This document shows positions 708-52,597 of a stretch of 64,000 nucleotides of DNA, one piece after another (within the stretch, counting starts at the first letter, position 1; the number at the start of each line of letters is the position of its first letter). Source of the stretch: Heliocidaris erythrogramma (lineage: Eukaryota; Echinodermata; Echinoidea; Camarodonta; Echinometridae); assembly GCA_025617745.1 (NCBI GenBank), contig CM046869.1, forward strand, positions 17,996,994-18,060,993. The letters run 5' to 3'. The position numbers were made by a program, and so were the translations under genes. The notes under the pieces were generated by a model. It was not told the DNA's origin. It did no database searches and was given only the letters and a program-made list of their open reading frames with translations.

Positions 708-774
708 ATGAAGTGTCTCTCTGTGATTTTTATCATTTCTTTGATCCTTGTAGCTGGTTTTCTGGATGAAACAG
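708..774 (+). CDS. gene A exon 1: signal peptide of a small secreted basic peptide
   Basis: The exon runs from ATG to a donor (ACAG|GTGAGA) and codes 22 residues plus the first base of the next codon, so the intron is phase 1. The peptide, MKCLSVIFIISLILVAGFLD then ET, has a long hydrophobic core typical of a secretory signal. It aligns without gaps with exon 1 of gene B at 15313: same length, same intron phase, shared ILVAG and the same ET at the donor. I take the two as paralogues. I do not recognise the family. The product should enter the secretory pathway, with cleavage near the end of the core. An antimicrobial or signalling peptide is possible, but that is inference from size and charge only. 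Confidence 0.6.
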
Positions 775-860
775 GTGAGATATAATTCCTTTTAAATTAA
801 AAATGCCAGAACTCAAATTTTCACCAGTCTATATCTCTGATTCTTCTGTTTCCATTTCAG

Positions 861-904
861 AAGAGTTCACTCTGTATAGAAGGTATAAGACATTACTGTC
901 CTAA
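861..904 (+). CDS. gene A exon-2-like copy a (possible alternative last exon)
   Basis: A good acceptor (tttccatttcag) at 851-860 is followed by a frame that joins exon 1 in phase 1 and reads EEFTLYRRYKTLLS then stop (TAA 902-904). The first part resembles exon 2 of gene B (EGFRYKK), including the bases GTATAAGA. Use as a last exon would give a 36-residue precursor with a tiny basic tail. A donor-like AG|GTATAA at 882/883 would instead make a 22-nt microexon that joins the copy at 3447 in an open frame. Either use is unproven and it may be a decayed duplicate. Confidence 0.33.
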
Positions 905-1141
905 GATTTCAAAATCACTCCCTAATTTGTTGAAAACAAGCTGATTTACACAATCAAACCCCTAATAAATTTAAAAACAAGGAAAATGTATATTGCATGA
1001 TACCAATATTAGTACCATTTCAAGGAGACTCCTAGGTAAAATACTGTTTAATTACAGCATTTCAAGGAGGAATTCGGAAAGAACTTGAAAATATGTACCC
1101 ATACTTTCCATACTGCAGATATTTTTCTCCAAAACACACCT

Positions 1142-1738
1142 TTAAAGGGAAATCCAACCATAATGGCAAGTTGCTCTGAATGAAAGAGGAAAAATCAGAG
1201 AAGCAGATTGGTGAAAGTTTGAACGAAATCGGACAAACAATAATAAAGTTATGAATTTTTGAAAGTTGTAACCACTATACATATAGGGATTTCAAATTGA
1301 CCGAATAGGTAACATCACTGTGATGTAGTTGCGGACAACTCCCTCATTCGCTCCAACACACAAAATGACTAAAATATCATTTTTTTTTCAAAATGTATTA
1401 CTCAGAAGCATTATTTTCTTTCATGAGGACCTATAACAATATGCTATCTCCAATATATTTTGAGTACTGACCCGAGGGTAAAGGCGCTTCGGAGAAAACC
1501 GCAAATTAATGATATTTTGTGTACGACAAACGGGAGAGCTGTCCACAAGTATGTCGAAGTATATCGACTCAGCAAATTGCTAACTTGAGATTCACATAGA
1601 TGTAGTGATCTCATTTTTCAAACATTTATAACTTTCTTATACCTTGCGCGATTTCTCTCAAACTTTCACGATCCTGTTTTTCTTATTTTCCTGCTTTCTC
1701 ACAAATCAACTTATCACCAAGGTTGGATTGCCCTTTAA
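1142..1738. mobile_element. TTAA-flanked MITE (family T1), copy 1
   Basis: The termini AGGGAAATCCAACC (left) and GGTTGGATTGCCCT (right) are inverted repeats, directly flanked by TTAA at 1142-1145 and 1735-1738. The body is about 590 bp without coding capacity. A close relative sits at 32432-33023 inside a LINE and a more diverged one at 4472-5149. The TTAA target duplication is the hallmark of piggyBac-type transposition. Confidence 0.8.
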
Positions 1739-1829
1739 GATTTGATTTCACGGATGTGTTAGCCTGAAACACAGAGAATTTAAAAAGACCTCTTTCTCCA
1801 TGGATTTTGGAACAGTCATTCATGACTAT

Positions 1830-1903
1830 ACATTTTGAAGATGAGAGAACATTCAGGTTTTCCTTCTTGGGTAACTTGCTATCAAGATTTGACTGCCCTT
1901 TAA
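1830..1903. repeat. Solo end fragment of the T1 MITE
   Basis: The stretch ending GACTGCCCTTTAA repeats, in degraded form, the right end of the adjacent T1 element. It is probably a remnant of a second insertion. Confidence 0.45.
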
Positions 1904-2504
1904 TATGGACAATAAAATGAATCTGAATCAATGAACTATATTAGCATCACTCTGCTCCACACTCGGTATGGCCTTCTCAAGGGGAGGAGTAAGCGTGGAG
2001 TGAGTCCTGACCAGCAGTGGATTCTCTGTAATATGCAAGGTGTCCGCACAAGGTGTCAGATCAAAATAATTTTTCATAGGTACCTATATGTTTTGTGACA
2101 AAAACATCACTAAAGATGGGAATAAGGGGACGATCTACATGTAAAACAAGCACAAACTCTTGCAAGTCATAACACACAACACAGTGTATGAATAGTATGA
2201 CCAAGGAGATTGACTGTTGACTGCACTCTATCTACACCCTGTGCAGGCTCCTGCATGGCACAGCCTGATACTGACAAAGTTACAGCCAGATCTACTGACA
2301 AAGTACGCTCAAGGCTTCGTGAAATTTTGTCAAAATAAGAGTCTGTAACTGCAGACAAGCAAGATCTAGCATGCAACTCTGGAAACAAATGCATGTAACA
2401 TACAAAGATATGAAAGGTAGCTTATTGGGTGAGGATTGAGTCAGAAGCATAGCTCAGTGGGGACCGGCTGCAGACCAAGCATGAATGTAAAAGTATATAT
2501 CGTC

Positions 2505-2567
2505 TGTTGAGAGCCAGAAGGGTGTTAACTCTGTGTGAGAGTATAGGAGTCAAAGCCCTTCTGGCTC
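2505..2567. repeat. Short hairpin repeat (GAGCCAGAAGGG / CCCTTCTGGCTC)
   Basis: Perfect 12-bp inverted ends enclose about 33 bp. A relative with the same layout (CTGTTCAGAGTCAGAATGGC ... CTTTTGGCTCTCAACAG) is at 59493-59557, so this is a dispersed family of about 65 bp. Confidence 0.55.
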
Positions 2568-2647
2568 CAAACATGCAATATATGAGATTCCTTCTCAATT
2601 TACTAGTTCCTTAATCTTATTATTTGTTTGGTGCTTTCACATTGCAG

Positions 2648-2721
2648 AAGGAACAACAAAAAGAATGTTCAGACGTAGGCATTATACTGTCAGAAAAACA
2701 AACCTACAGGAGATGGACGTG
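2648..2721 (+). CDS. gene A exon 2 (copy b): basic peptide segment
   Basis: The acceptor tttcacattgcag precedes 2648 and the donor GTG|GTAAGA follows 2721. Joined to exon 1 the frame gives E then GTTKRMFRRRHYTVRKTN and LQEMDV: 25 residues, strongly basic, with KR, RRR and RK pairs. It has the same place, size (74 against 75 nt) and character as exon 2 of gene B, which reads EGFRYKKPSYRRRGQPSS. The exon ends in phase 0, unlike phase 1 in gene B, so the 3' parts of the two genes have diverged. The dibasic sites could be cut by prohormone convertases, or the basic patch could be the active part. This is the best candidate for the functional exon 2. Confidence 0.5.
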
Positions 2722-3446
2722 GTAAGATTTTATCATATTCACCAAACTTCTCTATTTACCTATTCATTATATATATTTACAACTATATATATCGCTAAAG
2801 TCTACATTAGGTCGACAGTTTTTATCTTACTTCTGTGCTCAACTGTCCACCTAATGTACCTACTGTCTACCTATAAATGTAGGGGTGCTATTATGATGAA
2901 ATAAACTGCATTGTTGTGTGTCCAGTTGTTTCCAGAATCTAGATTTTGAAAAAATACCAATGTGATGACTCTATATGGTCAGACTTCATTGAAATACCAT
3001 TCCTCTAGTGAACTTACAATCTTATATTATGTGGTCTCAAAGTTCATTGTAAACGATAAATTTTATATATTCATCATTATAGACCTAACTGCTTCCCATT
3101 GTAACACTACATTATGATTTTCATTTCTCTTTACAAAATGTCACCTCTCAAGATGAATGACGAACACCAGCTTGGTGAGACGGATTGGAAGAAAAAATAA
3201 ACTCCACAAGAAAACGTGTGCAGCTTCGAGATATTGGATCTCCCAAGTCATTAAAAATTTTCTAAAACGTAGCATAATAATGAAATAATGTTCAAAAGTT
3301 GAGGAATGCAGCTCCTTTGTCATTATGCTTATGCCTAGCTTAAATGATAGAAATCTCCTTTTTTCTCTTACAAGTGATAGCAGGGGTATTGATACATGGC
3401 CAAGATGGAGGGTTAGAATAAATCATATAAGTCATTTTCATTTCAG

Positions 3447-3520
3447 TAAAAAGAAATACAAAGATGTGACAATGAAATTACTTTGGGCCTCTGTCAGAAA
3501 AAGACAAATTTCTAATTCAG
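3447..3520 (+). pseudogene. gene A exon-2-like copy c
   Basis: A strong acceptor (cattttcatttcag) and a donor (TTCAG|GTAATA) bound exactly 74 nt, the size of copy b. The stretch CTCTGTCAGAAAAAGACAAA matches TACTGTCAGAAAAACAAA of copy b, so the two are duplicates. In phase 1 or phase 0 the frame stops at once or within eight codons. Only phase 2 is open (KKKYKDVTMKLLWASVRKR...). It could be read only after the 22-nt microexon form of copy a, so it is either a dead copy or an alternative exon. Confidence 0.4.
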
Positions 3521-4470
3521 GTAATACATATACAAGAACAAAAACGAAATGATACAACTATAGAAAGAAACAAGATTATTTAGGTAGATCTAATATCAGA
3601 CATTATTTGGAAAACAGAAAGTTTCCTTTCGGTAAATTTTTTAGCCCAAATATTGGGAAAAAATCAAAGTGATTTTTGAGTGATGTTTTTGCGCATCAAC
3701 AAAATTTCTGAGTATTTCTTTGTTGTTTTTTAAATCAGCAATTTCAATCGTGCCAACCCTGGTGATTTCATTATCCCTCATTAAGATACACTTTTCTGGT
3801 TATTGATGTACTATTCAACTTTTTTTAAATGCTAAAATATCAGAAAGGTGACAGAAAGCAAGATTATATACTTGGCAACAATGATATGGAATCCTTTCAA
3901 AATTTATCCTTTGGTTGAAAGAAATAATATCTGTGATTTTACGATTTTTTTTGCAATCATTTATGAATAGAATTATTACTAGTCCCATTAAAACATTAAA
4001 ATGAAGGGGGAGAAAGACATGTTTATTGGGAACATTTTAATCTCTGACATTTCTACCTGGCACTGTTAGTGTCAAGCCATGCTTTGAGTACTGTATCATA
4101 ACTTCAAACAGAAGAATTGGTATGACCTAAAGAAGACTATGCCATGGAGTATTCCAGATGGAATCCATTGGAAATTTTTATTAAATATAAAAATGAAACC
4201 CTTTCCTTTTTAACAAACTGTAATCATTCATTAGCTTGGGTAGCATAATTTTGTTGTTATTTTTTTATTTTCTATGCCTCTCATTGACCCTTCTCATAAC
4301 ATCAAAATAAAGATGTAGCTTCGGTGATTGGAATAAAATCAACTTTTGACTTTGTAAATGAAATCATTGTTGTTAGAAATAGCTCTTTAGCGTGTGTGGG
4401 GTGCATTCGTAGGTGGGGTAAGGTGCGGGTGTATGGTGTGCAGTAGTTGTATGTGTATATGTGTGGAAGT
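3521..4470. other. No gene seen
   Basis: AT-rich intergenic or intronic DNA. It has a TG/GTGTGTATG-rich stretch at 4392-4470 and no open frame with recognisable protein character. Confidence 0.5.
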
Positions 4471-4471
4471 G

Positions 4472-5149
4472 TTAAAAGGCAATCCAACCTATGGACAAGA
4501 CAATGCGTTTGAAAGCAGAAAAAATGAAAGAAACAGGGTGGTGAAAGTTTGAAAGAATAATAAGAAAGTTATGAATGCTTAAAAAATGAGATCAGTAAAT
4601 CCATGCGAATCTCAAATTGGCAATTTGGTCTATTGATTTGTTTAAAGTACACTAAATTGTCATTAATTTTTGTTTTTCTCCTAATCAGCTTCCCGCAAGT
4701 TTGCCATCAAGTGGGTAACAAGCTTTCCATGAACTTGCAGCTAATTTCCATATCTGGTACAAAAGGAACTAGCAGCAAGCTTGCCAATAAACAAGCCAAA
4801 ATTCCCTCAGGGCAGCTAAAATACTTGAAATATATTGTAGATAGCAAAATTATACATTTAGGTTCTCCGAAAAGAAAAAGATCATCCCATAATATTTTTT
4901 TAAAAATTGACATTTTTATAGTCACTTTGTGTGTTGGAACATATGGGAAAGTTGTCTGCCGCTACATCACAGTGACAATACCCATTAGGCTAATTTGAAA
5001 ATTCCCATATGAATAATAATTACTACTTTCAAATATTCACAATTTTCATATTGCTTGTCCAATTTCATTCAAACTATCACCAAAGTGCTTCTCTGATTTT
5101 TCTACTTTCTTTCACAGCAACTTGCCATTAAGTTCGGATTTCCCTTTTA
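4472..5149. mobile_element. TTAA MITE (family T1), copy 2, diverged
   Basis: It starts TTAA then AAGGCAATCCAACC and ends GTTCGGATTTCCCTTTTA, the inverted form of the same terminus with a decayed right TTAA. Internal stretches match the copies at 1142 and 32432. The 131-residue open frame at 4603-4998 lies wholly inside it and looks accidental. Confidence 0.65.
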
Positions 5150-5209
5150 TTGGGCTTTTTTTTGTTTCATCTTTTGCATCTGGTCTAATATTCAGTAACC
5201 CTGTGTGTG

Positions 5210-5550
5210 TTAACCCCTTTACCATCAGGTTTTTTATAGGATCAAATGGATATTTTTAGACCAAGAATGCAAGACCAAATGGGTAATGATTAGACTATAT
5301 ATGAAACGGTCCAAAAGGCATTTAGACAAACTGACAAATGAACAAATTAACAGTAGATGAAATTGTTGTGCGGCTGGCAGAAGGGCGTAAGCGTGTTGCG
5401 CCGTTCTGATAAATGCAGATGTCCACTATTGTGTTAAGCAGAAGGGTGCTAGCAATTAAAGTGTACTAATCACCTAAAAAAATAATTTGTGTATGGCTAG
5501 AAGGTATAAAATCAACCTCAAACAACTTTACCTGGCATGCTATGGGTTAA
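5210..5550. mobile_element. Possible TTAA-flanked element
   Basis: TTAA at 5210-5213 is followed by CCCCTTTACCATCAGG. The other end reads CCTGGCATGCTATGGG then TTAA at 5547-5550. The terminal repeats are imperfect, so this is a weaker case than the T1 family. Confidence 0.4.
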
Positions 5551-5986
5551 TAGTAAAGGAGTATGAAGAAAATAAAAGATAAAAGAAAAGTGTACACACG
5601 GAACCCAACTCAGCAAGAGCATACGGGTCCGTCGACTAGCCTAATCACAAATTGCTTTTTCGTTTATTGCGAGTATATTTAAACATGAAATATCTCTTTA
5701 TAGAACTAATATTTTAGTATCTTAATATTTTTTGGTGATTCGTGGTACCTTTAAATATTCATAACTTCAAAAATATCTACTTATTTGATACAAAACTAGT
5801 CAAATCAGGTAGATACCATCCCTTTTCATTTTTTCATTATTTATAAAGTGAGAAATCCCTGTCATGTTTGAAAAATGGTGTAATTACACTTAAAGAGCAA
5901 ACAAAATCTTAGAAGTGCATTACCACAAAATTTCCTTCATGGCATGCATGGATGTGAACGACCTTCTGCTAGCCACACAACAAACA

Positions 5987-6125
5987 GGGGACTGTTTCAT
6001 AAAACTTGCCATCAATGACAAGATGCAATAACTGTTAAAAGCTACTGAAATCCTTGCATCTGATTGGCTGAAAGCAAATTTGTTGGTAGTAAATCACTGA
6101 CAAGACACTTGATGAAGTGCCCCCC
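5987..6125. mobile_element. Short MITE (GGGG-CTGTTTCATAA family), copy 1
   Basis: About 140 bp from GGGGACTGTTTCATAAAACTT to a degraded inverted end (GATGAAGTGCCCCC). It shares its middle (GCATCTGATTGGCTG, TTACTACC) with the better preserved copy at 50746-50882. Confidence 0.55.
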
Positions 6126-7192
6126 TGATGATTAGAATTATGACAGAGAAACTGGGTTTACACCATGAAATATGATAAGACGAATTGGGTTTGGACCAAT
6201 TGGCATTGAACCAATTGGCATTGGTCCAAATGGCAATTTGCCAATCAAACTACTGATCACATGATGGAATATCAATAGATTATCTCTATTCATTTTATTT
6301 TTTAATATCCTCTTTGAATCGCTGATCTACACAGTATAATATCTTATTCAAGAACGCACCCTTTTATGGTTCAGCGCACTGAACAAAAAAAATGGGCGTA
6401 GTCTCGCCTTACTGATGACAATTACTGCACTTTAGACCCTACTGTCGGGAGCTTTTTAGTAATAAAAGAAGTAATTGATTTATTCAAAACATTCCAAACC
6501 ACTGGAAAGATTCAGCCCAAGATATGATCTTCTGTGTTAATAAAAAAATTTGCCTCTTGTATTTGTTTGTTTCTGAGTGCATGTAAATGTACATGTACGC
6601 ACTTGGTACAAACCATCAAACCCATGCATTAAAAAAAATGTTTTTGAGAAGAAAAACAGTGTCACCAAGTGTTTAATTTCATTGGTTATCTTGGTAATTT
6701 TTTTTTAAAGTTGAATGGACATTTTTTCATAGAACAAGAGTCATAGGTAGTACCTTTAATCAAAAGTATAGTTATTGTTATTGATATCAATGAGAAAGGA
6801 CTACACATTGTAGTGCACCAATCACTTAACTGCTAAAATGCACAAAATATCATTACCACTTCGATCCGCAATCAATGCAGACATCTCGACCCGCTACCAG
6901 AGGACTCGCAAGCTACATGTAGGGTCCACACTTAGTCTGGACTGGAGGTGGATTCTCCATAGTATATGAACAGTTCTAAAAAGGTAGCATGATTTGAGTT
7001 CTGGATTGGATGGGTAGCTATCAGTCTGGACTAGGTCAGGACACAACCTTCTTTGGCAGTGTTTATGAAATCGATACTACATAAATGTAGGAGCAACCAA
7101 GTGCTTCGTATCACACACAATTTGCGCTGCGCAGTCCACCACCATGCATTGTTGTTATTACATGTATTGTACGGTGCTTTGGTCTAATGCAG
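6126..7192. other. No gene seen; probable last intron of gene A
   Basis: It contains an imperfect ATTGG/CCAATTGG cluster at 6185-6245 and otherwise ordinary AT-rich DNA. If the last exon of gene A is at 7193, this is intronic. Confidence 0.4.
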
Positions 7193-7252
7193 GTGTCATT
7201 TCAAGCCAAAGCAGTTAAAGCTGAAGCAACAACAGAAACAACAGTTGCGTAG
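7193..7252 (+). CDS. gene A possible last exon
   Basis: After an acceptor (ggtctaatgcag) the frame that fits the phase-0 end of the exon at 2648-2721 is open for 19 codons, VSFQAKAVKAEATTETTVA, then TAG at 7250-7252. AATAAA follows 170 bp on. The predicted whole precursor would be 66 residues. It has no clear similarity to the last exon of gene B and the pyrimidine tract is only moderate, so this is a phase-consistent guess rather than a demonstrated exon. Confidence 0.3.
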   Translation: MSFQAKAVKAEATTETTVA

Positions 7253-7422
7253 TTGAACGGCATAACAGAAATTGTGTCGCACAATTCACCCCCTCCCCCA
7301 AACACTTTTGGGATGGAAAACCCTTATCAGCAAGAATGGGGTGTCAAGAATGTTGTTTTTCATAGGGGGTCCATTAAAGTCTACCGTAAAACTAAGACAC
7401 ATATATCTCACTCGGTGTAAGA

Positions 7423-7428
7423 AATAAA
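7423..7428 (+). terminator. Possible polyadenylation signal of gene A
   Basis: AATAAA 170 bp after the putative stop at 7250-7252. This hexamer is frequent by chance in such AT-rich DNA. Confidence 0.25.
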
Positions 7429-7429
7429 A

Positions 7430-9110
7430 AGAATATTATTATAACTCTGATCAGACTGAGGTTTTTACATTATAAACTGAAATTTTGGAGCCCCTCTTAT
7501 AACCGAGAGTCATGAATCATTAATGACACTGGATAGCAAAAAGTTGGCAGAAATGACAAGTGTGATGAAAAATGGTATTGTTAAATTCTGAATTAATGAC
7601 CGATACACACAGATTTTGTAGCATTGTTTTTTGCAAAGAGTGAAAATCTTATTCACTATTCAGAGCATTATTTTAAGAATAGTATTCAATGAAATGTCAT
7701 AAATATTCCAAATAAATTTCACACCCTTTAACTTTACAAAGTGAAAACATCAGTCTGATATGATTTTCAACTTTTTAAATTATTTTCAATCAAAAGTGTC
7801 AAATAATTTTTTTAAAACCTAGTATTAAATAAAATATACATGTATTGAAGTGAAAGAAAAGAAATTCAAGTCACAGTAGACAAAATTACACCTAAGTATG
7901 GGTCAGCAATCTAAGTTAATATCCGTCTTATGATTGTTGGTGAAAAACCACTTGTTTGGAAGTATGAGGACATCACTGAACAGTTTTTATAATATCTCGG
8001 TGGTGAAAAGAACAGTTAAGACACCATTGATAATATACACTAATAATTATCCCTCAAAAGATAAGTTCCAAAAGCTTTTCACCATGCTACATGTATTTGG
8101 ATATGAAAATAATGCTAATTGCCAACCTATAACACTCGGGGTTTGCAAGGTGAAAAATAATGTCATTCGTATAATCTGATTACCACTATAAAGATCTGTG
8201 AGTGGAGGATATTTCACATACTTTCGCCATGTTGTTTCAAGTAACAAGAAACTGCACTCCAAGAGCATTAACAATATGGATCAATCTTCTTTGTACAAAG
8301 GACCATATGATGTACAGCTATGGGAACGTGCAACTCTTTCTCCAGATACCCTGGCTCAGTTCCATTTTCGATTCTGTACCTATTTTTCTGTTCGCTTGAC
8401 AATTCAAAGAAACAAATAATACATGTATTGTTATACACACGTACACATAGTTTGGCCTTGCTCTGGTGGTAGAGATTAGCTTTGCAAGTCATTTCCAGTT
8501 TTTTTCATTGGCCCAATTCACACACACACAAAGAGTTTAGTTACGCGCATTCACACTAAGGAAAAAATTATACTAACCATGCTAACCACCAAGCACAGCA
8601 ATCTCATCAGCCGCCTTCTAGCCATTTTCAGAGGGCTCGAGCGACCAACATATTTTGTTAATCTTTTTCTTTCTCTATGAACTTCTTTATTTTTATATTC
8701 TTTCCTCTTCTCTTTCTATCATTCCTTGTGTTTCTTTGTTTTTACTTTTTTTTAAAGCTTCTGACCTCGGTCAAAACAGTGATGTTCAAATCTCAATTAC
8801 TCTGACTGTGAGAATGCCCCTATTGTGTATACTTGTTTTCAGCACTTCTGACAGATGAATTATGCCTGCACCCAGCCACAACCATGGTGCTTGTTTGTTG
8901 TGACATGCATAGATGTACTTATTACTTCAAAAAATCATAGGAAAAAAAGTTCATTATAATCATATGCAGATCTAGAATTCTGTGATGGAAGGGGGGGGGG
9001 GGGAATGGAGTCACAAGTCTAAAATATCTGACAAGCAAAAAATAATAACGGTAGATCAAGGGAGACAAAAAAATGAGTCTTTATAGGTAGTTGCAAGTAT
9101 ATAGATTAAT
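7430..9110. other. No gene seen
   Basis: AT-rich DNA with a CA-rich patch near 8520 and a G run at 8991-9003. The overlapping 60-80-residue open frames at 7934-8492 on both strands show no domain or motif and look accidental. Confidence 0.5.
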
Positions 9111-9487
9111 TTAACCCTTTCAGGACATGAATTATTTAAGAGCTAAATTAATCACATTTTGTTTTTCAAATTGGCAACAAAAATAATTTTCTTTTAATGC
9201 TACATGGTTCTAATAAAATGTAATGTCTTTGAAAACAACATGCATGGTTTGTCGAAAAGTGGAAAATATTGCCAATTTCGACATAAAACAATGATTTTGA
9301 ACCTCCCAATGTATTTCCAATTTAAGGACTTTAAGGACTTTAAGGCTTATTTTCTTTTTTAAAATTCCGGGCATCAAACGCAATATGGTCATGCAACAAA
9401 AATGCCTCTGGTATATTTTTTAGGGCTGTAAATCAAAAGTTATTGAGCCAAACCACAAAATTTGGTCAATTGTCTTGAAAGGGTTAA
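9111..9487. mobile_element. TTAA-flanked MITE (CCCTTTCAGGACA ends), copy 1
   Basis: TTAA then CCCTTTCAGGACA at the left, TTGTCTTGAAAGGG then TTAA at the right. CCC...GGG ends with TTAA duplications fit the piggyBac superfamily. A second copy at 43741-44157 shares the body (TGCTACATGGTTCTAATAAA, AAAGTTATTGAGCCAAACCA). Confidence 0.8.
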
Positions 9488-9781
9488 AAAATGTTTCAAT
9501 GGAAACACTTCAATGGAGACAAAAATGGGGTTTTTAGTTATATAGTCTGTAACTCTGGTGTGCTCTCTATCAATTCAGAGAAAATATAGCACTATCACAA
9601 GCTTTTTCTACTGACAAAGAATTATTTTGCCGAACAGTGACCATAATGCGAATAGTGCAAAAGGGACTAAAAATCATGGGTATTTCCACTGAGCATTAAT
9701 CAGAAATGGCCTCCACTTGGCAGTTATCGGGTTATTCTCCTGAAGACAATCGGAACAGTCAGAATGGAGAACCGAAACTAG

Positions 9782-10459
9782 ATGAATTCCCAACTGCACG
9801 CATTCGAAATTTATGCCCTCAGCCCAGTGAATGTGGGCTTGTGGTACAGTGCAACTTCATACAAGATTGGGCTCATTAGAAACTTAGTGTGCCGCGCCCT
9901 TAAGATTTGCTCCGAGTGCAAATTAGCTCCCGAAATCGCTAAAATCACAACTATTCTCCTTGACAATGGTTACCCTGAGCATTTTATATCTCGCACCATA
10001 ACACGGACGCTGGAGGCACAATCCAAATCTGACACCAGATTTGGTCCTGCCAAATGCCCTGTGTATCTCAAACTACCCTGGAGGGGTAAGGTATCTGACA
10101 AATACGCCAGTCAGATCAAACACGCAGTGTCACGTTGCTATTATGTGGTCTCGACACACATTGTGTTTTCTACAAACAGGATGCTACTGTCAACTAGCAA
10201 GGATGTACTACCCACCCCCCACTTGAGTAATGTTATTTACCAATTTCAGTGCCGGTGCGATGCCAGGTACGTGGGCCGCACTTCTCAGCGGTTGGCTGAT
10301 CGCATTAAACAACACGTCCCCTCGACTATTCGGAACCGTACAACTAATCAGCGCACGCAGTCCGTCCGTGCCTGCAAATCTGAAATGCACGCTAACAGAC
10401 CAAAGATAGCCAAATGCGATTCAGCGATTGGTCTCCATTTACTGAACAATCCAGCTTGA
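9782..10459 (+). CDS. Penelope-like retroelement fragment: RT thumb/linker and GIY-YIG endonuclease
   Basis: A 225-residue open frame without the reverse-transcriptase palm. Residues 22-80 (YKIGLIRNLVCRALKICS, LLDNGYPEHFI) match the region after the RT palm of Penelope-like elements. Residues 92-105 hold a PVYLKLPWRG motif, and 151-180 a GIY-YIG module with VIYQ, RYVGRTSQRL and DRIKQHVP. In the family this nuclease nicks DNA for target-primed reverse transcription. The first 20 residues look unrelated and may be flank. The palm and its catalytic aspartates are absent, so the copy is 5'-truncated and inactive, although its reading frame is unusually clean for a relic. A second fragment of this class lies at 21250-21880. 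Confidence 0.85.
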   Translation: MNSQLHAFEIYALSPVNVGLWYSATSYKIGLIRNLVCRALKICSECKLAPEIAKITTILLDNGYPEHFISRTITRTLEAQSKSDTRFGPAKCPVYLKLPWRGKVSDKYASQIKHAVSRCYYVVSTHIVFSTNRMLLSTSKDVLPTPHLSNVIYQFQCRCDARYVGRTSQRLADRIKQHVPSTIRNRTTNQRTQSVRACKSEMHANRPKIAKCDSAIGLHLLNNPA

Positions 10460-11052
10460 GCACAAAGCTATGCCGACGATCAATTCTCAATTATGATTTC
10501 CACACAAAAATCAGAATGAATGTGACATGCATTATTAGCACACCATATGATGAAAATAAGGACCCCAAAGTGTTCACTGACATCTAATGAAAAAATTGAA
10601 TTATAAGAAAAACATAAAAGTGTCTAAAAAAAGAGACATTTCAAAAATTCAAATGTGAAAAACAAAAAATTAAGGCTATTACAGGGCTTCACACAAACTC
10701 TTTTGCCAGGGGACCTGCCCAACCCCAAGATCTTAATATTTTTGATATTTTGTGGGTACAGGGAAAAAAATTAAATTGAAATAAGAAATATGAAAGGAAC
10801 TGCATATATTCAACAGCAGTCAACTATTGATCCATTTGATGGGCTCAATTGTTATCTTAAATTGTCACTTGTCATTCAATCTACAAAGTAAAAAAGTATA
10901 AAAGAAAAAAGGGGTTTAAGTGGCTCTTTTAATGTTTCGTATCATTGTGGGTGTGTGTGCATGAGAGTGTAAGGTTTGGTGTAGGCTTGGATGTGCATAT
11001 GTGTTTTATTAAAGAGTCTAACTTTGCCTTTTATACCATTCACAAACAAATA
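10460..11052. other. No gene seen
   Basis: AT-rich DNA downstream of the Penelope-like frame, with oligo-A stretches. Nothing is recognisable up to the Tc1 element. Confidence 0.5.
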
Positions 11053-11871: not shown

Positions 11872-12777
11872 GTACACTATCACACCACTGTAGTTCTTCT
11901 CATACCTTAGAAATAAAATAAGTGTTTTGAAATCGCAGAAGTACATATAATTTACATTTCATTTTTTTTGGGGGGGAGTCTAAATTTGGTAAGAATTGTA
12001 CGATGAATGTATCATCAAATATTATATGTAGTATTCAAATAAATGATGATAAGTAAAGTGTTTCCATAACTGAAATTTCTTCATTTAAGCAGCTCAGTGA
12101 GGCATTTACTGAGGACTCCTCCCCCGAAGGTCAGGCAGCCAAGGCTGTTGAGAACAGCTCCGACTAACAGCGCCGTCATGACGGAGTATTGGCAAAATAG
12201 AGAATAATTTCGTCAGTTTTGAACTAAATACAGAATAAATAGGGACAAACAAAGTCCAAAAATACAGTTTCTGACATTTTTTTGTTCTGAAAAATGTCAC
12301 TCACGACCAAAATCAACCCGAGGAATTAGGGGTGAGCTCTGCGAAACCGCAAGTCATGCAGTCATTTGAGTGTATGCGGAGCACATACAAATGCATCGCA
12401 GTACGGTGGGTACCACTCCTAGAACTGCCACGGGATACTTATCACAAAATAATGTGAGACGAATACCACAGACTTCTAATGAGTCGGCAGTAAGTAACGG
12501 ACATACCCCTGTCCTAATTCAGTAATTGCTTTCTTAGAGGGTTCCCCCCGGTGAGAGAAGTGCGATAAACTCTCAAACTGAGGCTTTGTTTGTTTTATTT
12601 TTTAAAGAAAGAAAAGAAAAAGGGGAAAAAAGATCGTATTTTTATAGACAATATCGTATTGTCGTATTTTACTTTTTTTATCGTACAAAATAATAAAGTT
12701 TGGCATTTTTTCTGGGAAACAGAAAAACGGAGTACTCCGTTTTTTGGCCTCTTAAAAATGTTAAAAACTGAGAAATT
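11872..12777. other. No gene seen; GC-richer block at 12110-12560
   Basis: The part at 12110-12560 is less AT-rich than its surroundings (CTCCTCCCCCGAAGG, GCGGAGCACATACAAATGC). It shows no open coding frame, tRNA or snRNA that I can identify. It may be the end of an unrecognised repeat. Confidence 0.4.
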
Positions 12778-13145
12778 GGCAGGTATGAAATTGGCCTCTG
12801 TGACCTTTGACCTTTGACCTACGTACCTCACAATCTAATCAGATCGTTTTCCTTTAATGATACATACTAGCACCTAATTTGAAGTTCATACCTCATATGG
12901 ATCTTGAGTTATCGCGAGAACGAGGCTAACACCTGAAATTTCAGAAATTAGCCTCTGTTGACTTTGACCTTTGACCTACGTACCCAAAAATCTAATCAGA
13001 TCGTCTTCCTATGGTGATACATACTAGCACCAAGTTTGAAGTTCATACCTCATGTGGTTCTTGAGTTATCGCTAGAACAAGAAAGGGGGACGGACGGACG
13101 GACGGATGGACGGATGGATGGACGCATGGACAGACATATGGACAT
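12778..13145. repeat. Two tandem ~150-bp units ending in a (GGAC)n tail
   Basis: Units starting GCCTCTGT..ACTTTGACC and containing GATACATACTAGCACC and GAAGTTCATACCTCAT recur at about 12796-12929 and 12953-13084. They are followed by GGACGGACGGACGGAT repeats to 13140. The microsatellite tail suggests the 3' end of a retroelement. The TGACCTTTGACCT direct repeats resemble nuclear-receptor half sites, probably by coincidence. Confidence 0.6.
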
Positions 13146-13984
13146 ACAGTAACAGAGCCTGGGAAAAGTACTGGTCCAACTCGGCAATGAAAATAATGGA
13201 ATCAAAAGATGGGAATAGTTTAAAGAATCAAAAAAAGAATCAAAAGAATCAATTTGAAATGCTAGTTCTACTTCATTAAATTTGACATTTACAAAAGTTT
13301 CAGCTCAGTGCATCCATAGAGTACATGTGGAGGCGCAAGGCCAAATCGGCATTGAAAATTATGGAATCCAGGGATAAGAAGAATTCACTTCACTTCTTAT
13401 TTTGAAAGGTTTCTCTTTTAACAAAAGACAGAACAAGAAAGAGAGAATAAAGAGGACTTGTTGTTTCCACATTATTTCATTTGATACATAAGGCACTGCA
13501 CATACTGTATACCTGGTAGCTTATTCTTTCATACTACACTCTGATCCATTGCATTTCACTTTCTGAACAAAGAAAGAGAAAATAAACAGGACTCAGTGTA
13601 CCGTAACAGAGCCTGTGAACAGTACTGGTCCCACTCGGCAATGAAAATAATGGAATCAAGAGATGAGAATAGCTCAAAGAATCAAACTTCATAATTTGAA
13701 ATGCTACTTCTACTTCATTAAATTTGACATTTACAAAAGTTTCAGCTCAGTGCATCCATAGAGTACATGTGGAGGCACAAGGCCAAATCGGCATTGAAAA
13801 TTATGGAATCCAGCATGGGCATCAATCCTCACAGGAATTCTATTCAAGTGGGGGGGGGGACACCCTATTGTTGCATCCAGGTGTGTCCCCACCCCCCCAC
13901 CCCCTTATCAAGGGATAAGAAGAATTCACTGCACTTCTTATTTTGAAAGTTTACTGTTTTAACAAAAGACAGAACAAGAAATAG

Positions 13985-14253
13985 ACACTATGAACACTAT
14001 GACAAAGAGTGCGGACAAAATATTACAGCTCCTCATGGTACCCTCCACAATTGCTCTGGTAGACAAAAGAACATCCCTTCATTGCTATTATGTAAAATAA
14101 GTAGCACAGCTGAATATGCATGTGTCACCTGTTCTACATATTTTTACATAATAGCAATGAAGGAATGTTCTTTGGTCTACCAGAGCAATTGCGGAAGGTA
14201 CAATGAGGAGCTGTATATTTTGTCCGCTTCTTTGTTCGCCATGTTCATAGTGA
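13985..14253. mobile_element. MITE with ~90-bp inverted ends
   Basis: The left end CACTATGAACACTATGAC with GCGGACAAAATAT and CAGCTCCTCATGGTACC is mirrored at the right (GAGGAGCTGTATATTTTGTC, GTTCATAGTG). A long internal hairpin reads AATAGCAATGAAGGAATGTTC. The truncated twin at 14813-14970 shows that the element was present before the 808-bp duplication. Confidence 0.7.
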
Positions 14254-14812
14254 GAGAATAAACAGGACTCACGTTGTTTCCACATTATTTCACTTGATAC
14301 ATTTAAGGCACTGCACATCCTGTAAAGCTTATTCTTTCATACTACACTCTGATCCATTGCATTTCTCTTTCTGAACAAAGAAAGAGAAAATAAACAGGAC
14401 TCAGTGTACCGTAACAGAGCCTGTGAACAGTACTGGTCCCACTCGGCAATGAAAATAATGGAATCAAGAGATGAGAATAGCTCAAAGTATCAAACTTCAT
14501 AATTTGAAATGCTACTTCTACTTCATTAAATTTGACATTTACAAAAGTTTCAGCTCAGTGCATCCATAGAGTACATGTGGAGGCACAAGGCCAAATCGGC
14601 ATTGAAAATTATGGAATCCAGCATGGGCATCAATCCTCACAGGAATTCTATTCAAGTGGGGGGGGGGGGGACATCCTATTGTTGCATCCAGGTGTGTCCC
14701 CACCCCCCCCCCCCCCCCCCCACCCCCCACTTATCAAGGGATAAGAAGAATTCACTGCACTTCTTATTTTGAAAGTTTACTGTTTTAACAAAAGACAGAA
14801 CAAGAAATAGAC

Positions 14813-14970
14813 ACTATGAACACTATGACAAAGAGTGCGGACAAAATATACAGCTCCTCATGGTACCCTCCACAATTGCTCTGGTAGACAAAAGAACATC
14901 CCTTCATTGCTATTATGTAAAATAAGTAGCACAGCTGAATATGCATGTGACACCTGTTCTACATATTTTT
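14813..14970. mobile_element. Truncated copy of the 13985 MITE
   Basis: Identical in layout to the left half of the element at 13985-14253, then breaks at CTACATATTTTTAC into the next array unit. The break marks a recombination or deletion junction. Confidence 0.65.
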
Positions 14971-15190
14971 ACTTCTTAATTTGAAATGCTACTTCTACTT
15001 CATTAAATTTGACATTTACAAAAGTTTCAGCTCAGTGCATTCATAGACTACATGTGGAGGCACAAAGCCAAATCGGCATTGAAAATTATGGAATTCCAGG
15101 GATAAGAAGAATTCACTTCACTTCTTATTTTGAAAGGTTTCTGTTTTAACAAAAGACAGAACAAGAAAGAGAGAAAACACAGGACTTGTT

Positions 15191-15312
15191 GTTTCCACAT
15201 TATTTCATTTGATACATAAGGCACTGCACATACTCTATAGCTCATTCTCTCATATTGCACTCTGATCCATTGCATTTCACTTTCTGGAGAAATAATCAAA
15301 CGCTGATTCAAA
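15191..15312 (+). promoter_or_regulatory. Proximal upstream region of gene B
   Basis: It runs from GTTTCCACATTATTTCA to the ATG at 15313. CATACTCTATAGCTC near 15230 is a weak TATA-like site. The segment 15191-15286 has two closely similar copies upstream, at 13463 and 14276. They carry CTGTATACCTGG and CTGTAAAGC at the same place and have no exon behind them. Confidence 0.4.
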
Positions 15313-15379
15313 ATGCAGCATCTTTGGGTGACTTTGCTGATTTCGTTCATCCTTGTTGCTGGGCTTTCAACTGAAACAG
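15313..15379 (+). CDS. gene B exon 1: signal peptide of a small secreted basic peptide
   Basis: ATG to a donor (ACAG|GTAAGAG) gives 22 residues, MQHLWVTLLISFILVAGLST then ET, plus one base (phase 1). The hydrophobic core LLISFILVAG is a clear secretory signal, and cleavage after GLS or nearby would fit. The exon is identical in length and phase to gene A exon 1 and about half the residues match. Spliced with 18427-18501 and 19521-19663 it gives a 94-residue precursor, all introns phase 1. The family is not one I recognise. It differs from the echinoid defence families I know by name (185/333 proteins, strongylocins, centrocins), chiefly in lacking their cysteine or repeat patterns. Confidence 0.65.
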
Positions 15380-16195
15380 GTAAGAGCCACCCAAAAACTA
15401 TGACTTTTTCATATGACTGTCTCAGGGAATTTTTCCTAGATCTAGCTTATATATGAGCCCCTACAACCAACAGCTAGGAAATTCTTTACATCATTCAAAG
15501 AAAAGTATTCTCAGTTTATCATCCATACATACACTGTAGAATTTTGCCAAAAATATATTTTCATGCGAGCGACAAAATTGAATATTCAAGAAACTTGTAC
15601 ACTGTACATAATAAATAGGGAAACGTTGAGACATTTCATATGACAAACTGCTTTGGCACAGCACAACTTGCAAGGGATTGTGCAATAGAATTTTGTTTTT
15701 TAATTTTTAAATTATGCATATTCTCCATGGTGAAACCGAGATCACTATAGTTTTTTTTTAAGGGGGCGGGGGTGTTGTTAATTTCTCATTTGTTATGCTT
15801 ATGCCAAAGGGGCCGAAGTGTGGGGTTTTTTTTCTCACTGTCCATCACTTTTCCTTTTTTAATCTACATCTATTAAAGTCAATTACTTTCATTCAAACAA
15901 TCTCTTATATGTTCTTCTCTTAATTAAAAGACAATAAACAAATTCAGTGACACATATGTCAAAATATTAGATGTTTCATGACACTGTTACAATATCTGCC
16001 CATTCCCCCCCCCCCCCCCCCCCCCGCTATAAAAGACTGATTTGAACAATCCAAGCAATAATTACTAATTGGTGTAACAGAGGAAAATAAGATGATATGA
16101 TTTTCAAGAACCAGTGAGGTACAAATACTAGCTTCCCAGAATTTTTTTTTTCTTTTTATTGACTATGCAACAGTAACTGAGTGGGGGTTAACCTC
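15380..16195 (+). other. gene B intron 1, first part
   Basis: Non-coding, AT-rich, with a long C run at 16006-16025. The open frame at 15491-15685 on the other strand has no protein character. Confidence 0.5.
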
Positions 16196-16428
16196 GCTAG
16201 TCATAAGGTCCACTTATTCATAAGGACCGCTATCCATAAAGCATGACTAAATGAATAACGGTCCTTGTGAATAGCGAGCAAATCATAGACAAATTACCTT
16301 GCTATTCATAAGGACCTCCATTCATAAGGACCACTATTCATAATTATTCATAAGGACCGCTATTCATAACGTGTGTTAAATGAATAGCGGTCTTCTATGA
16401 ATAGCCGTCCTTATGAAGAGGGAACGGA
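16196..16428. repeat. Cluster of short TTCATAAGGACCGCTA motifs in both orientations
   Basis: About ten copies of ATTCATAAGGACC(G/A)CT or its complement (AATAGCGGTCCTTATGAA) are packed in 230 bp, some direct, some inverted and several imperfect. They lie in intron 1 of gene B. The motif does not match a transposon end that I know. It could be a decayed minisatellite or an array of protein-binding sites. Confidence 0.7.
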
Positions 16429-16604
16429 CCCGCTGAATGATCCCTGTATGAAGCCAAAGGGAATGAGAGAATTCAGTAGTCAAAGGATTAAAAACTATCA
16501 TCTGCCTTGTCTTTATCAACCATATTTTAGTATGACATAACTCCATTTTTTTCTACTTTGCTCTTTCATTTCCATAATGTAGAAATAATACAATAATAAT
16601 CATT

Positions 16605-16958
16605 GGCGGATCCAGGGGGGGGGCACAGCCGGCCCGTGCCCCCCCCCCTTTTGGAAGAGAAGTATGATTTTTTACCATAGACGATCTGCCATTTTGTGTA
16701 TTGTGCCCCCCCTTTTAGAGTGAAGACCTTTTTTTCTTTTTTTTTTTTTTTTGCTTGTCAGGGAATTATGGAGGGAAACTGGACCCCATAACCCGTTACT
16801 AAGCGATTTTGGAAGGTTTGGCAATTTTTTTTTTGTCCCCCCCCCCCCCCCCCACTGAGCGACTTTTCGAGAAGCTGACGAGACCAAAAAAATACGGGTG
16901 TACCTTTTCACAAACTTTCATTTTTGTGCCCCCTCTTTTACTAAATCCTGGATCCGCC
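16605..16958. mobile_element. GGCGGATCCAGG-ended inverted-repeat element with G/C runs
   Basis: Starts GGCGGATCCAGGGGG, ends CCTGGATCCGCC, with long G, C and T runs inside and a repeated GTGCCCCCC motif. Related architecture (GGCGTATCCAGG) appears at 31151 and 36228, and CCGTACGCAG with a G run at 29784. Confidence 0.65.
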
Positions 16959-17030
16959 CCTGATAATAATGATAAAATATTATATCATTGTGGATCATAT
17001 TAAATGCTGTATAAATCAAAACTTTCATTA

Positions 17031-17160
17031 TGAAGAAGAAGAAAAAGATGAAGGAGGAGGAAGAGGAGGAAGAGGAAGAAGAGGAAGAAGAAGAGAGGAA
17101 GGAGATGAAAAATAAGAAAAAATAAGAAAGAACAAGAAGATAAAGAAAAAGAATAATATG
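17031..17160. repeat. Purine tract (GAA/GGA)n
   Basis: An almost unbroken run of A and G on the + strand, mainly GAAGAA, GGAGGA and AAGAAAAAG. The opposite-strand open frame of serines, leucines and prolines is a by-product. Confidence 0.85.
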
Positions 17161-17254
17161 GTCTTATATACCCAGGTAAGCTCAGTATTAATACTACTCT
17201 TCCTGCAGGCCTTGCAATTATTACCCCAGCATTGCCATGTAGCCATTTAATACA

Positions 17255-17580
17255 CCTGGGGGTGTTCCATAAAGTTGTTCGTTAAGTTCGGCAAGATTTT
17301 AAAGAACGACTTTAATATGAAGTGCCAGAAAGGATGACCAAAGTTTTTCCTGATGGTTTAAAGTGTGATTGTATTTCCTATAACCTCAATTAAATTATGG
17401 CAAAAAATATACTTTGCATTAGAAATGTTTGTCATAATAAGAATGCTAATATACATCTGCACAGTTCAACTTTAGTTGATGCAGTAAAAAATGGCTGAGC
17501 ATTCCATTAGGCTTGTCATATCCAAGTCATTCGTAAAGTCATGCGTAACTTTACGAACAGCTTTATGAAACACCCCCTAG
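17255..17580. mobile_element. MITE with CTGGGGGTGTTCCATAAAG ends
   Basis: The left end CTGGGGGTGTTCCATAAAGT and the right end CTTTATGAAACACCCCCTAG are inverted, extending about 30 bp with TGTTCGT(T/A)AAGTT. The body is non-coding. Confidence 0.7.
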
Positions 17581-17689
17581 GGTCAAGACTTGAGAGGGAG
17601 AAATATGGTAACAAAACCTTGTTCAAGAATGTTAGCAATCGAGCAATGATGGAACCCAGGGCCTCTCGTATGAGGGTCAAGCGCCTGCC

Positions 17690-18302
17690 TTAAAGGCCAA
17701 GTCCACCCTAACAAAAAGTTTATTTGAATAAATAGAGAAAAATCCAACAAGCATAACACTGAAAATTTCATCAAAATAGGATGTAAAATAAGAAAGTTAT
17801 GGTATTTTAAAGTTTCGCTTAATTTTTGCAAAACAGTTATATGCACATCCTGCTCAGTATGCAAATGAGGGAACCAGTGACGTCACCCACTCACTATTTC
17901 TTTTTTATTTTATTATATGTGAAATATAGAATATTTTAATTTCTGCAGATTTCACAATTAGGAAGCTCTCATTGAATTGTGTATAGGTTGCAACAATAGC
18001 AATTACACATGTTCAGCGAGGAATCAAACCTTGTTTCACATTATAACAAGGAAAAATTAAAATATTTTGTATTTCATGTAATAAAATACAAAAGAAATAG
18101 TGAGTGGGTGACGTCACTGGTTCCCTCATTTGCATACTGAGGAGGATGTGCATACAACTGTATTGCGAAATTAAGCAAAACTTAAAATACCATAACTTTC
18201 TTATTTTACATCCTATTTTGATGAAATTTTCAGTGTTATGCTTGTTGGATTTTTCTCTATTTATTCAAATCAACTTTTTGTTAGGGTGGACTTGGCCTTT
18301 AA
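17690..18302. mobile_element. TTAA-flanked foldback element in gene B intron 1
   Basis: The body at 17694-18298 starts AGGCCAAGTCCACCCTAAC and ends with its complement, flanked by TTAA (17690-17693 and 18299-18302). The arms, about 240 bp each, are highly similar along their length (17694-17940 and about 18050-18298) with only about 110 bp between. An intron transcript would fold into a long hairpin. Open frames at 17583-17864 and 18104-18379 share a peptide because they sit in opposite arms; neither is a gene. Confidence 0.85.
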
Positions 18303-18426
18303 TATACCACATGGCTCCTATTGATTACAATGTGGCAATAATTAAATGCCACAGCAACTATAACAGAGAAAGCTACTAAAACATGCCACTTCTCACTGAT
18401 GCATTCTTCAACTGTCTCTTTTTCAG

Positions 18427-18501
18427 AGGGTTTCAGGTATAAGAAGCCTTCTTATCGCCGCAGGGGACAACCTAGTTCAGCAAGAATTGTACCACTAAGA
18501 G
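18427..18501 (+). CDS. gene B exon 2: basic peptide segment
   Basis: The acceptor caactgtctctttttcag precedes 18427 and the donor AGAG|GTATGT follows 18501. In frame with exon 1 it codes E, then GFRYKKPSYRRRGQPSSARI and VPLR, and ends one base into a codon (phase 1). It carries nine basic residues, no acidic one after the first and no cysteine. KK and RRR could be processing sites. The intron-exon design, two phase-1 introns around a 25-residue block, makes it a symmetrical exon that can be duplicated or skipped without breaking the frame. That fits the tandem copies seen at gene A. Confidence 0.65.
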
Positions 18502-18920
18502 GTATGTATGGTTTTATCACAATGTAAAAATGCAAATAGGGCAATTTCAAAGTAAAACCCACTGCATACTATACCATCCAAATACAATATCAGGCTGTGA
18601 ATATGAAACTTCAAACCTGTAAAATCTTCCCGATATCACTAAAAATATATTTTCACGAGAGCTACAAAAATCAATAAATATTAGAGAAAAACGTAATTGA
18701 TCTTGATATGCATAGTAATGGTAGGACACTAATTTGAAAAAATACTTCATAAATATACTGCTGCACAGGAAGAGTTCTAAGTTATTTAACAAAAAAAAAC
18801 AATTTTTTGTAATTTTTAAACACGTCCTGTTGCTTGAAGTGTGCATATGTTTCATAACCAATCCAGGATCACATTTTTTTTTTGGGGGGGGAGGGATCTT
18901 AATAAATATATGCATATGTT

Positions 18921-19110
18921 TATAGTATCTCTCTCTCTCTCTTTATCTCTTTATCTTTCCTTCTCCATATCTCATCTCTATTTTCTCTTTCTCTTTATTT
19001 CCCTCTTTCTACTGAAGCCTCCTTTTGATCATCTCTTTACTATCACTTGTTTCAAATTTACTTTCTCCCTTCATCTCTCTCTCTCTGAGTTTCCTACCTT
19101 CACCTTTCTG
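18921..19110. repeat. CT-rich simple sequence in gene B intron 2
   Basis: CTCTCTCT and TTCTCTTTC runs produce serine/leucine/phenylalanine-rich open frames on the + strand that are not genes. A G run follows at 19185-19199. Confidence 0.7.
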
Positions 19111-19520
19111 GCTTCCATCTTGTGTTCTGTTCTTCCTCCTAGGTTTATGCAAAAAGTCAAACAATTTAACCCCTTTCATGCCATTGGGGGGGGGGGGGCG
19201 GCAAGGCCTGTAGAAGTGATGAATGTTGTGTTTGGACAAGGAATGGCAACCTTTTGCTTCCTGAAACAGATATGAGGATCATTTCCTTGGAAATGTATTA
19301 TGCTTAATTAAATCTTTTAATGAAACAAAGCATTAAAAGTCACAATCTGACTACTGGAAGTTCATTCATTTATATATATCAATTGTTCAAAAACTTGGTG
19401 GCACAAAAGAAGTTAATAATCACATTAGTGCCCCCAGTACGGAAAATAAATATTTCTTTTTCTTTTGCACCCAGTGGGCAATACCTACAATGCAATCTTC
19501 ACTTTTTCTTTTTTCCTTAG

Positions 19521-19663
19521 AGCAAGATGTCGCCCCTAAAAAGAACAGTGGAGGAAGTCATGCTCTGGAACCCGCTTATGGAGCAGCTAAAGGAGAACCG
19601 AACGCGACGGGCTACTCATTTGTCAAATCTATCCTAGTTGACGTTTGTCCAATAACATTTTAA
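19521..19663 (+). CDS. gene B exon 3: C-terminal part and stop
   Basis: The pyrimidine-rich acceptor tttttcttttttccttag is followed by a phase-1 frame of 47 codons to TAA (19661-19663). It reads E, QDVAPKKNSGGSHALEPAYG, AAKGEPNATGYSFVKSIL, VDVCPITF. NAT is a potential N-glycosylation site and there is a single cysteine near the end. Compared with exon 2 it is less basic and richer in G, A and S. The stretch is GC-richer than its AT-rich surroundings, as expected of coding DNA. The precursor totals 94 residues, about 70 after signal removal. No nearby AATAAA is clear; the first good one is near 20490. Confidence 0.6.
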
Positions 19664-46998: not shown

Positions 46999-47065
46999 AT
47001 GACAAATATGAAGTGGACACTGGAGATTTTGGGCCTATTTTTCTTCTGCTTGTCATACAGCAAAG
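46999..47065 (+). CDS. TGFBR3: Candidate first exon of TGFBR3-like gene (signal peptide)
   Basis: Two in-frame ATGs (46999 and 47008, both with A at -3) lead into MKWTLEILGLFFFCLSYSK and one further base before a consensus donor (AAAG|GTGAGTAA). The hydrophobic core LEILGLFFFCL is a secretory signal. The phase-1 end joins 52598 exactly in frame, making GTT at the junction and continuing LATIPQSC. The intron would be 5.5 kb. The link to the 52598 exon is inferred from phase and order. Alternatively this is an exon of another gene, and the ATG at 52525 is the true start. Confidence 0.5.
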
Positions 47066-52524: not shown

Positions 52525-52597
52525 ATGGTATGCTTGAATTCCACGAAATATTGTCAATTTTATTTGCTCGTGATTTTCTTGGCCATCTACCCTGCAG

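Follow-up and report, generated by a model that had tools for sequence, protein, structure and literature searches.

The stretch of DNA analysed here, referred to as the window, comprises 64,000 nucleotides of the sea urchin Heliocidaris erythrogramma (assembly GCA_025617745.1, contig CM046869.1, hereafter C17, positions 17996994-18060993, plus strand; negative coordinates lie to the left of the window). It holds two genes, A and B, which almost certainly belong to a real family of small secreted basic peptides. Exon 1 of gene A (708..774, plus strand) encodes the 22-residue signal peptide MKCLSVIFIISLILVAGFLDET and ends at the phase-1 donor GGTGAG; exon 1 of gene B (15313..15379, plus strand) encodes the signal peptide MQHLWVTLLISFILVAGLSTET and ends at the phase-1 donor GGTAAG. 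Each consists of 22 codons and one further base ahead of the donor (GTGAG in A, GTAAG in B), and 47 of their 67 bases agree, compared with 11/60, 17/60, 18/63 and 16/60 (18-29%) in four flanking bins. A first-pass annotation of this DNA had placed both exons correctly, with equal lengths, phases and donors as given here, and had taken A and B for a pair of genes; instead, at least 12 signal exons of this kind lie on C17 and on a second contig, C9. All splice joins in the gene models below are predictions from the sequence, and the signal-peptide features (a basic start in most, hydrophobic core, and the endings VAG, VAS or LAA) were read by eye.

Gene A is present in three copies, A1, A2 and A3, of which A3 lies in the window, and its exon 1 is identical in all three. 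Exon 2 (2648..2721, plus strand) is preceded by CACATTGCAG, encodes EGTTKRMFRRRHYTVRKTNLQEMDV in A3 and EGLTKGMFRRRHYTGTVRKTNLKETDV in A1 and A2, and ends in phase 0 at GTG/GTAAGA. The positions already annotated for exons 1 and 2, including the exon 2 start at 2648, hold, but a predicted third exon (3153..3200, plus strand) had been missed. This exon encodes MNDEHQLGETDWKKK followed by a stop and is homologous to exon 3 of a related gene type, C. At the position of the C acceptor, 18 bases upstream of that of A, 3/3 A copies have AC in place of AG; the next AG, in CTCTCAAG, would serve as the acceptor of A and keeps the stop after MNDEHQLGETDWKKK in frame. Exon 3 of A and its near flanks are identical between A2 and A3. 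The predicted A precursor has 62 amino acids in A3 and 64 in A1 and A2, and A and C are about 80% identical over exon 1 and the 104 or so bases before it.

Type C, and type E from C9, are built like A, each as a three-exon precursor with a signal, a cysteine-free basic exon and a short C-terminal exon. In C, exon 2 encodes EGGMSIGARRPRRIRFGRIIRETKEEEMAV after CATTCCAG and ends in phase 0 at GTG/GTAAGA, and exon 3 follows TTCAG and encodes KISPLKMKLKDENKLGEKAFEEN then a stop, for a precursor of 75 amino acids. In E, exon 2 encodes EAITSSRRRRRRRWYAKASVEPL (E1) or EAITSSRRRRRRSRWYAKASVEPL (E2 and E3) and ends at the phase-1 donor GTAAGT; exon 3 encodes ENGAYMNYKAVGETGGALHSNIGNIEL then a stop after CTTTGTTCAG, with one extra G in E3, and the precursors are 72, 73 and 74 amino acids long. 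An AATAAA motif lies about 210-350 bases past the stop in C, A and E. Across the family, coding exons measure 48-143 bases and introns about 0.4-3 kb.

To define the extent of the family on C17, 100 kb were added on each side of the window, and the resulting 264 kb were surveyed with a screen for signal-like phase-1 exons of 16-31 codons and with tblastn; genome-wide searches covered the assembly of 1.064 Gb in 26 contigs. The 12 signal exons found each have 22 codons and end in phase 1. Eight lie on C17 within 111 kb and belong to types D, C, A and B, and four lie on C9 and belong to types E and F. On C17, type C exons 1 are at -42907 and -4306 (MQRLIVILIISMILVASLLDET), with a variant at -23818 (MQRDIAILIISMILVASLLDET); those of type A are at -37867, -17923 and 708, that of B is at 15313 and a divergent type D exon is at -95918 (MRKLILMLLISMLLVAEFVDGT). 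All of those to the left of the window, like A3 and B within it, are on the plus strand. On C9, E1-E3 occupy three places with the 22-codon, phase-1 exon MKRLFVVLLISLILAAEFLDET, and F, about 17 kb from E2 on the same strand, carries MQRLCVLVLISVLLVAEFLDKS (in 120 bases) with the phase-1 donor GTAAGC. Self-comparison revealed three tandem units of about 19 kb on C17, each with one C gene and one A gene, whose aligned pieces are 92-99% identical. The right-hand part of the third unit fills positions 1..10495 of the window, and its C gene lies at -4306 to -2640. On C17 the family has thus grown by tandem duplication, and C9 carries a further set. There, the three E copies are at most 3.7 Mb apart, lie on both strands and, counting substitutions, are about 99% identical across some 4 kb; they reflect either large duplications of recent date or an effect of the assembly.

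Several searches bear on how distinct these exons are. An exon-1 model, built from sequence alone with members of types D, C, A, B and E, scores eight places in the 264 kb at 57-78 bits, and nothing else there exceeds 11.3 bits; because the model was built from those members, these scores show only how far the members stand out. F, which was not used to build the model, scores 43.7 bits. A degenerate DNA pattern drawn from the C17 genes gave 11 matches genome-wide and its reversed version none. Seven of the 11 are C17 genes (B is too different to match), three are the E genes, then new, and one is on C3; E was therefore recovered by a pattern made without it, and E has its own basic phase-1 exon 2. 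The match on C3 was rejected, as it has no signal-like frame and does not match the exon-1 model. A second DNA pattern gave 11 matches, compared with 1 for its reversed control: nine known places, D (1 mismatch) and the new place F on C9 (2 mismatches). At the protein level, a genome-wide search with E returned 12 matches, of which 9 are its own exons and 2 are C genes (E 1.64), the remaining one being a weak match elsewhere that contains a stop; a search with C likewise returned 12, comprising 9 exons of C itself and the 3 E genes (E 6.3). Taken singly, both E-values fall short of significance; what counts is that the two types find each other. With B as query, the genome-wide protein search found nothing beyond the three exons of B itself, and a DNA search with exon 1 of B and its upstream region found only B and two upstream repeats. 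Candidates for exon 2 of D were rejected, since they lie in long retroelement-like frames or are unlike the family.

Gene B is the least settled member. Its exon 2 (18427..18501, plus strand) encodes EGFRYKKPSYRRRGQPSSARIVPLR and ends in phase 1 at GAG/GTATGT; weaker possible donors lie 4, 9 and 22 bases past 18501. The first-pass annotation continued in phase 1 into exon 3 at 19521..19663 (plus strand, EQDVAPKKNSGG...VCPITF) and proposed a 94-residue precursor whose tail carries an NAT site and one cysteine. The exons are where it placed them, and the strong-site join 18501/19521 does yield 94 amino acids. The tail itself, however, is unlike any of the four relatives' tails tested (P 0.42-0.88; P values for the likeness of tails and of exons 2 are from a shuffle test). 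A different frame of the same exon, plus strand with a stop at 19635-19637 (SKMSPLKRTVEEV...), contains SKMSPLKRTVEEVMLWNPLMEQLKENRTRRATHLSNLS, with KMSPLK, and resembles the tail of C (P 0.007) and a stretch of A that also contains KMSPLK (P 0.012). Over the 18 bases of KMSPLK, B and A differ at five, all of them third codon positions. The NAT site and the single cysteine of B are therefore doubtful, and B may have a shifted frame, other splicing, or be in decay.

An alternative splice confined to gene B would reconcile exon 2 with the family frame: a weaker donor (18506 or 18524) joined to a second acceptor AG, with exon 3 from 19523, gives the tail KMSPLKRTVEEV.... Both the resemblance to C and to the KMSPLK stretch of A and the five third-position differences speak for this arrangement, which we rate as a serious contender, a little short of an even chance. 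It requires TAT/GTATGG or AAT/GTAAAA, which look weaker than GAG/GTATGT. Moreover, the KMSPLK stretch of A sits before the predicted acceptor of A, and the alternative frame of B is not like the tail that A is predicted to use (P 0.92) or that of E (P 0.20). E offers a precedent for the strong-site join: like that of B, its exon 2 ends in phase 1 and the start of its exon 3 departs from the frame of A and C, so B may have shifted frame as E did. No AATAAA or ATTAAA occurs within 600 bases past the stop of B, the first lying 824 bases on. Compared with E, the exon 3 region of B yielded chance matches of short length and a 52-base one far past the stop of B, all of which we set aside.

The surroundings of B are repetitive. 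A broken tandem array with a spacing of about 808 bases (13145..15295) repeats the DNA just upstream of B, without a coding exon, and stops 17 bases before the ATG of B. Its last 96 or so bases occur in three copies in all, the two extra ones at 13472 and 14285 and 85-86% identical. Inverted repeats at 17690-18302, in intron 1 of B ahead of exon 2, have arms of 126 and 96 bases that are 98% and 94% complementary, and DNA related to them is found beside gene D.

We tentatively propose, giving the proposal as a whole somewhat less than an even chance, that these genes form an undescribed, actively duplicating sea urchin family of linear (cysteine-free) arginine-rich defence peptides, in which the 22-codon signal exon is fixed, the basic exon varies by in-frame insertions, deletions (indels) and substitutions, and the frame of the tail shifts between subfamilies through splice phase. 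The signal exon is far more strongly conserved from type to type than the basic one. Aligning C, A3, A1 and B leaves as invariant nine signal residues up to A16, the pairs ET and EG, two arginines and a glutamate; E has EA where C, A and B have EG, and the signal exon mostly ends in DET. The net charge of exon 2 stays between +3 and +7, and exon 3 is close to neutral (C +1, A -1, E -2). Exon 2 closes with an acidic stretch in C (ETKEEEMAV) and A (LQEMDV). After the signal there is no cysteine in C, A1, A3, E1, E2 or E3, and one in B in the frame first proposed for it.

Comparison of near-identical copies suggests that the exons are translated. The three distinct coding indels among them (6, 3 and 3 bases) are all multiples of three, compared with 5/35 noncoding indels nearby: 2/17 between E1 and E3, 2/11 between A2 and A3 and 1/7 between C2 and C3 (one-sided Fisher P 0.007). 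The pairs E1/E2 (6/23) and E2/E3 (6/11, the least favourable pair) were excluded from the sum because the same events would be counted twice. Coding substitutions number 5/189 (A2/A3), 3/228 (C2/C3) and 1/220 (E1/E3), and those outside coding sequence 23/3650, 27/2069 and 35/3926, respectively. Of the eight amino acid changes, five fall in exon 2 of A and three in the signal exon of C2. In exon 2 of A2/A3, 5/74 bases changed, compared with about 9/420 in the nearby intron (P 0.04). C and A have similar tails (P 0.0005 if KMSPLK is included, 0.0025 for the tail predicted for A), and the DNA similarity between C and A continues past the tails into the 3' flank.

A number of observations weigh against a family of defence peptides. 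Two of the coding indels, both in E, sit in CGT and AGG repeats and carry less weight because such trinucleotide repeats change by threes anyway; without them, P rises to 0.17. Eight of the nine coding substitutions are nonsynonymous by eye, which is not significant if 76% of sites are taken as nonsynonymous (P 0.33). The exons of C2/C3 and of E1/E3 show no acceleration relative to the flanking DNA (P 1 in both pairs), and the three changes between C2 and C3 all fall in the signal exon and none in the basic exon. The excess in exon 2 of A2/A3 may be explained by gene conversion, because the whole patch, including the intron, differs. Between types, exons 2 show weak similarity at most (E-A P 0.03, C-A P 0.04, the other four pairs 0.13-0.94), D and F are known from exon 1 only, and no conserved dibasic site ends the basic part in C, A3, A1 and B, as aligned, or in E, as judged by eye.

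A rival explanation is a mostly dead or non-coding set, in which signal exons were duplicated and the downstream exons are chance readings. The loss in the A copies of the acceptor used by C, the exon 3 frame of B, which is at odds with the phase of its exon 2, the lack of an accepted exon 2 for D and the thin indel support for coding all suit this explanation. It fits poorly, on the other hand, with C, A and E being open across three exons with GT and AG sites, with the roughly 80% identity that A and C keep over exon 1 and the 104 or so bases before it, or with the AATAAA motifs past the stops of C, A and E, and we regard it as improbable for the set as a whole.

The description of these loci as small secreted basic peptide genes that share a signal exon is supported, and database searches with C, A and B gave them no family. 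Pfam scans assigned neither C nor either frame of B to a family and gave only two matches of 0.046 and 0.073 for A, under the curated cut-offs; a profile search of the PDB with C, A and B returned no chain at E values up to 10. Six protein fragments were absent from the literature main texts searched. A scan for promoter motifs found none common to all six upstream regions.

As for function, a defence peptide family and a peptide-hormone precursor had both been put forward. A constant signal and a variable basic segment in tandem copies are typical of antimicrobial peptide families, and defence fits better than a hormone because the basic segment varies while its charge is kept, and because no peptide is repeated or shared. 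We consider it an evenly balanced judgement, drawn from sequence features, that the family is lineage-specific, linear, cysteine-free and arginine-rich and most likely serves host defence. Hormone or neuropeptide precursors cleaved at KK, RR or RRR would account for the basic clusters in C, A, B and E, and RFGR in C could in principle yield an amidated RF ending. RFGR is, however, present in C alone among C, A, B and E, the basic clusters constitute the peptide itself instead of separating one peptide from the next, no precursor contains repeats of a peptide, and these paralogues have none in common past the signal exon and the one or two residues that follow it, so that we think this origin quite unlikely, slightly more so than a dead set. 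What defines echinoderm neuropeptide precursors is the presence of conserved peptides flanked by cleavage sites. Those considered here, of which our account is partial, resemble the family in being secreted and in having basic residues, and differ in that the C, A, B and E paralogues have no conserved peptide between such sites. Fast-evolving secreted basic peptides of another role, such as gamete or egg-jelly interaction, egg-coat binding or the packaging of acidic polymers, would share the same anatomy of signal, variable basic part and tandem expansion, but nothing specific favours such a role; we judge it unlikely, if less so than a hormone or a dead set.

With defence as the preferred role, the nearest published layout that we found is that of the myticalins, linear cationic antimicrobial peptides of Mytilus mussels (PMC12294457), the likeness being one of gene layout. 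In the portions of that source available to us, myticalins are described as having a signal, a cysteine-free cationic peptide and an anionic extension, with a phase-one intron, clustered subfamilies and many pseudogenes; a conserved dibasic site precedes the anionic low-complexity extension, and the coding sequence is in exons 2 and 3 after a 5' untranslated exon (PMC12294457). Going by that description, the two share the order of signal, cysteine-free cationic segment and C-terminal extension, tandem clusters, several subfamilies, restriction to a lineage and the phase-one intron, since here the intron after the signal exon is in phase 1 in 12/12 places. In contrast, myticalins belong to another phylum, and the urchin family has two coding introns and, in C, A, B and E, none of the conserved dibasic sites of the mussel peptides; their extension is anionic, whereas exon 3 here is about neutral, though the ends of exon 2 in C and A are acidic. 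The family may thus work like a myticalin, but without a conserved dibasic site it is not filed as one.

Closer in phylogeny, the parts of two articles at our disposal count 17 echinoderm antimicrobial peptides in five families from six species, the named sea urchin and sea star ones being built on cysteines (PMC11767717), and describe centrocins as disulphide-linked heavy and light chains from precursors of 119 and 121 amino acids with a 20-residue signal, a 30-residue prosequence and a 24-residue interchain (PMC4805251), and strongylocins as having six cysteines in three disulphides, the signal of EeStrongylocin 2 being 22 residues long (PMC4805251, PMC11767717). On these partial descriptions, the urchin family shares with centrocins a short precursor with a signal peptide and a cationic antimicrobial chain, and with strongylocins the 22-residue signal (EeStrongylocin 2) and a cationic mature peptide. 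C, A and E, however, have no cysteine after the signal, where strongylocins have six, and their precursors, at 62-75 amino acids, are shorter than those of centrocins; because both known families need cysteines, the present one is neither. Holothuroidins of sea cucumbers are likewise small cationic peptides, called alpha-helical in the same partly available source (PMC11767717), a likeness by description only.

If these are defence peptides, the signal would be cut after VAG, VAS or LAA, and an acidic spacer, together with acidic stretches past the basic run, would keep the precursor quiet. The freed basic peptide would then bind negatively charged microbial membranes or act on targets inside microbes. 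Duplication, gene conversion and splice-site changes would diversify the set, and because of these processes some copies, perhaps B among them, may be dying. Should this prove true, a cysteine-free, tandemly duplicating set would widen the list of echinoderm antimicrobial peptides, and its change could be traced between nearly identical copies. Annotation pipelines probably miss such genes, because their exons are short, introns split them and they contain no known domain.

Other features were noted in and around the window, and elsewhere in the assembly. A signal-like phase-1 exon at 46999 (plus strand; MTNMKWTLEILGLFFFCLSYSK, donor GGTGAGTA) is unmatched by the exon-1 model of the family. 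The frame EGGKYKGKEITHFIKKAYPLDRPSCTSYQT occurs at two places, about 54 and 62 kb to the left of the window, the nearer one with exon-like phase-1 splice sites, and shows no link to any signal exon. Pieces of a gene for bindin, a sea urchin sperm protein that has sea star relatives, lie at C18:1368883-1370212 (Pfam PF02084, two matches, E 2.1e-68 and 4.0e-8; found in 0/14 control genomes) and support an echinoderm, probably a sea urchin, as the source of the genome. Remains of mobile elements in the window include a reverse-transcriptase fragment at 33682-34143 (minus strand; Pfam RVT_1, 5.6e-16) and a GIY-YIG-like frame at 9782-10459 (plus strand; 3.4e-4, just under the cut-off), the latter found again in the adjacent tandem units. 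Finally, an open frame at 52510-53373 (plus strand) resembles transforming growth factor beta receptor type 3 (betaglycan; PDB chain 7lbg_D, E 3.6e-7) and is part of a neighbouring gene.

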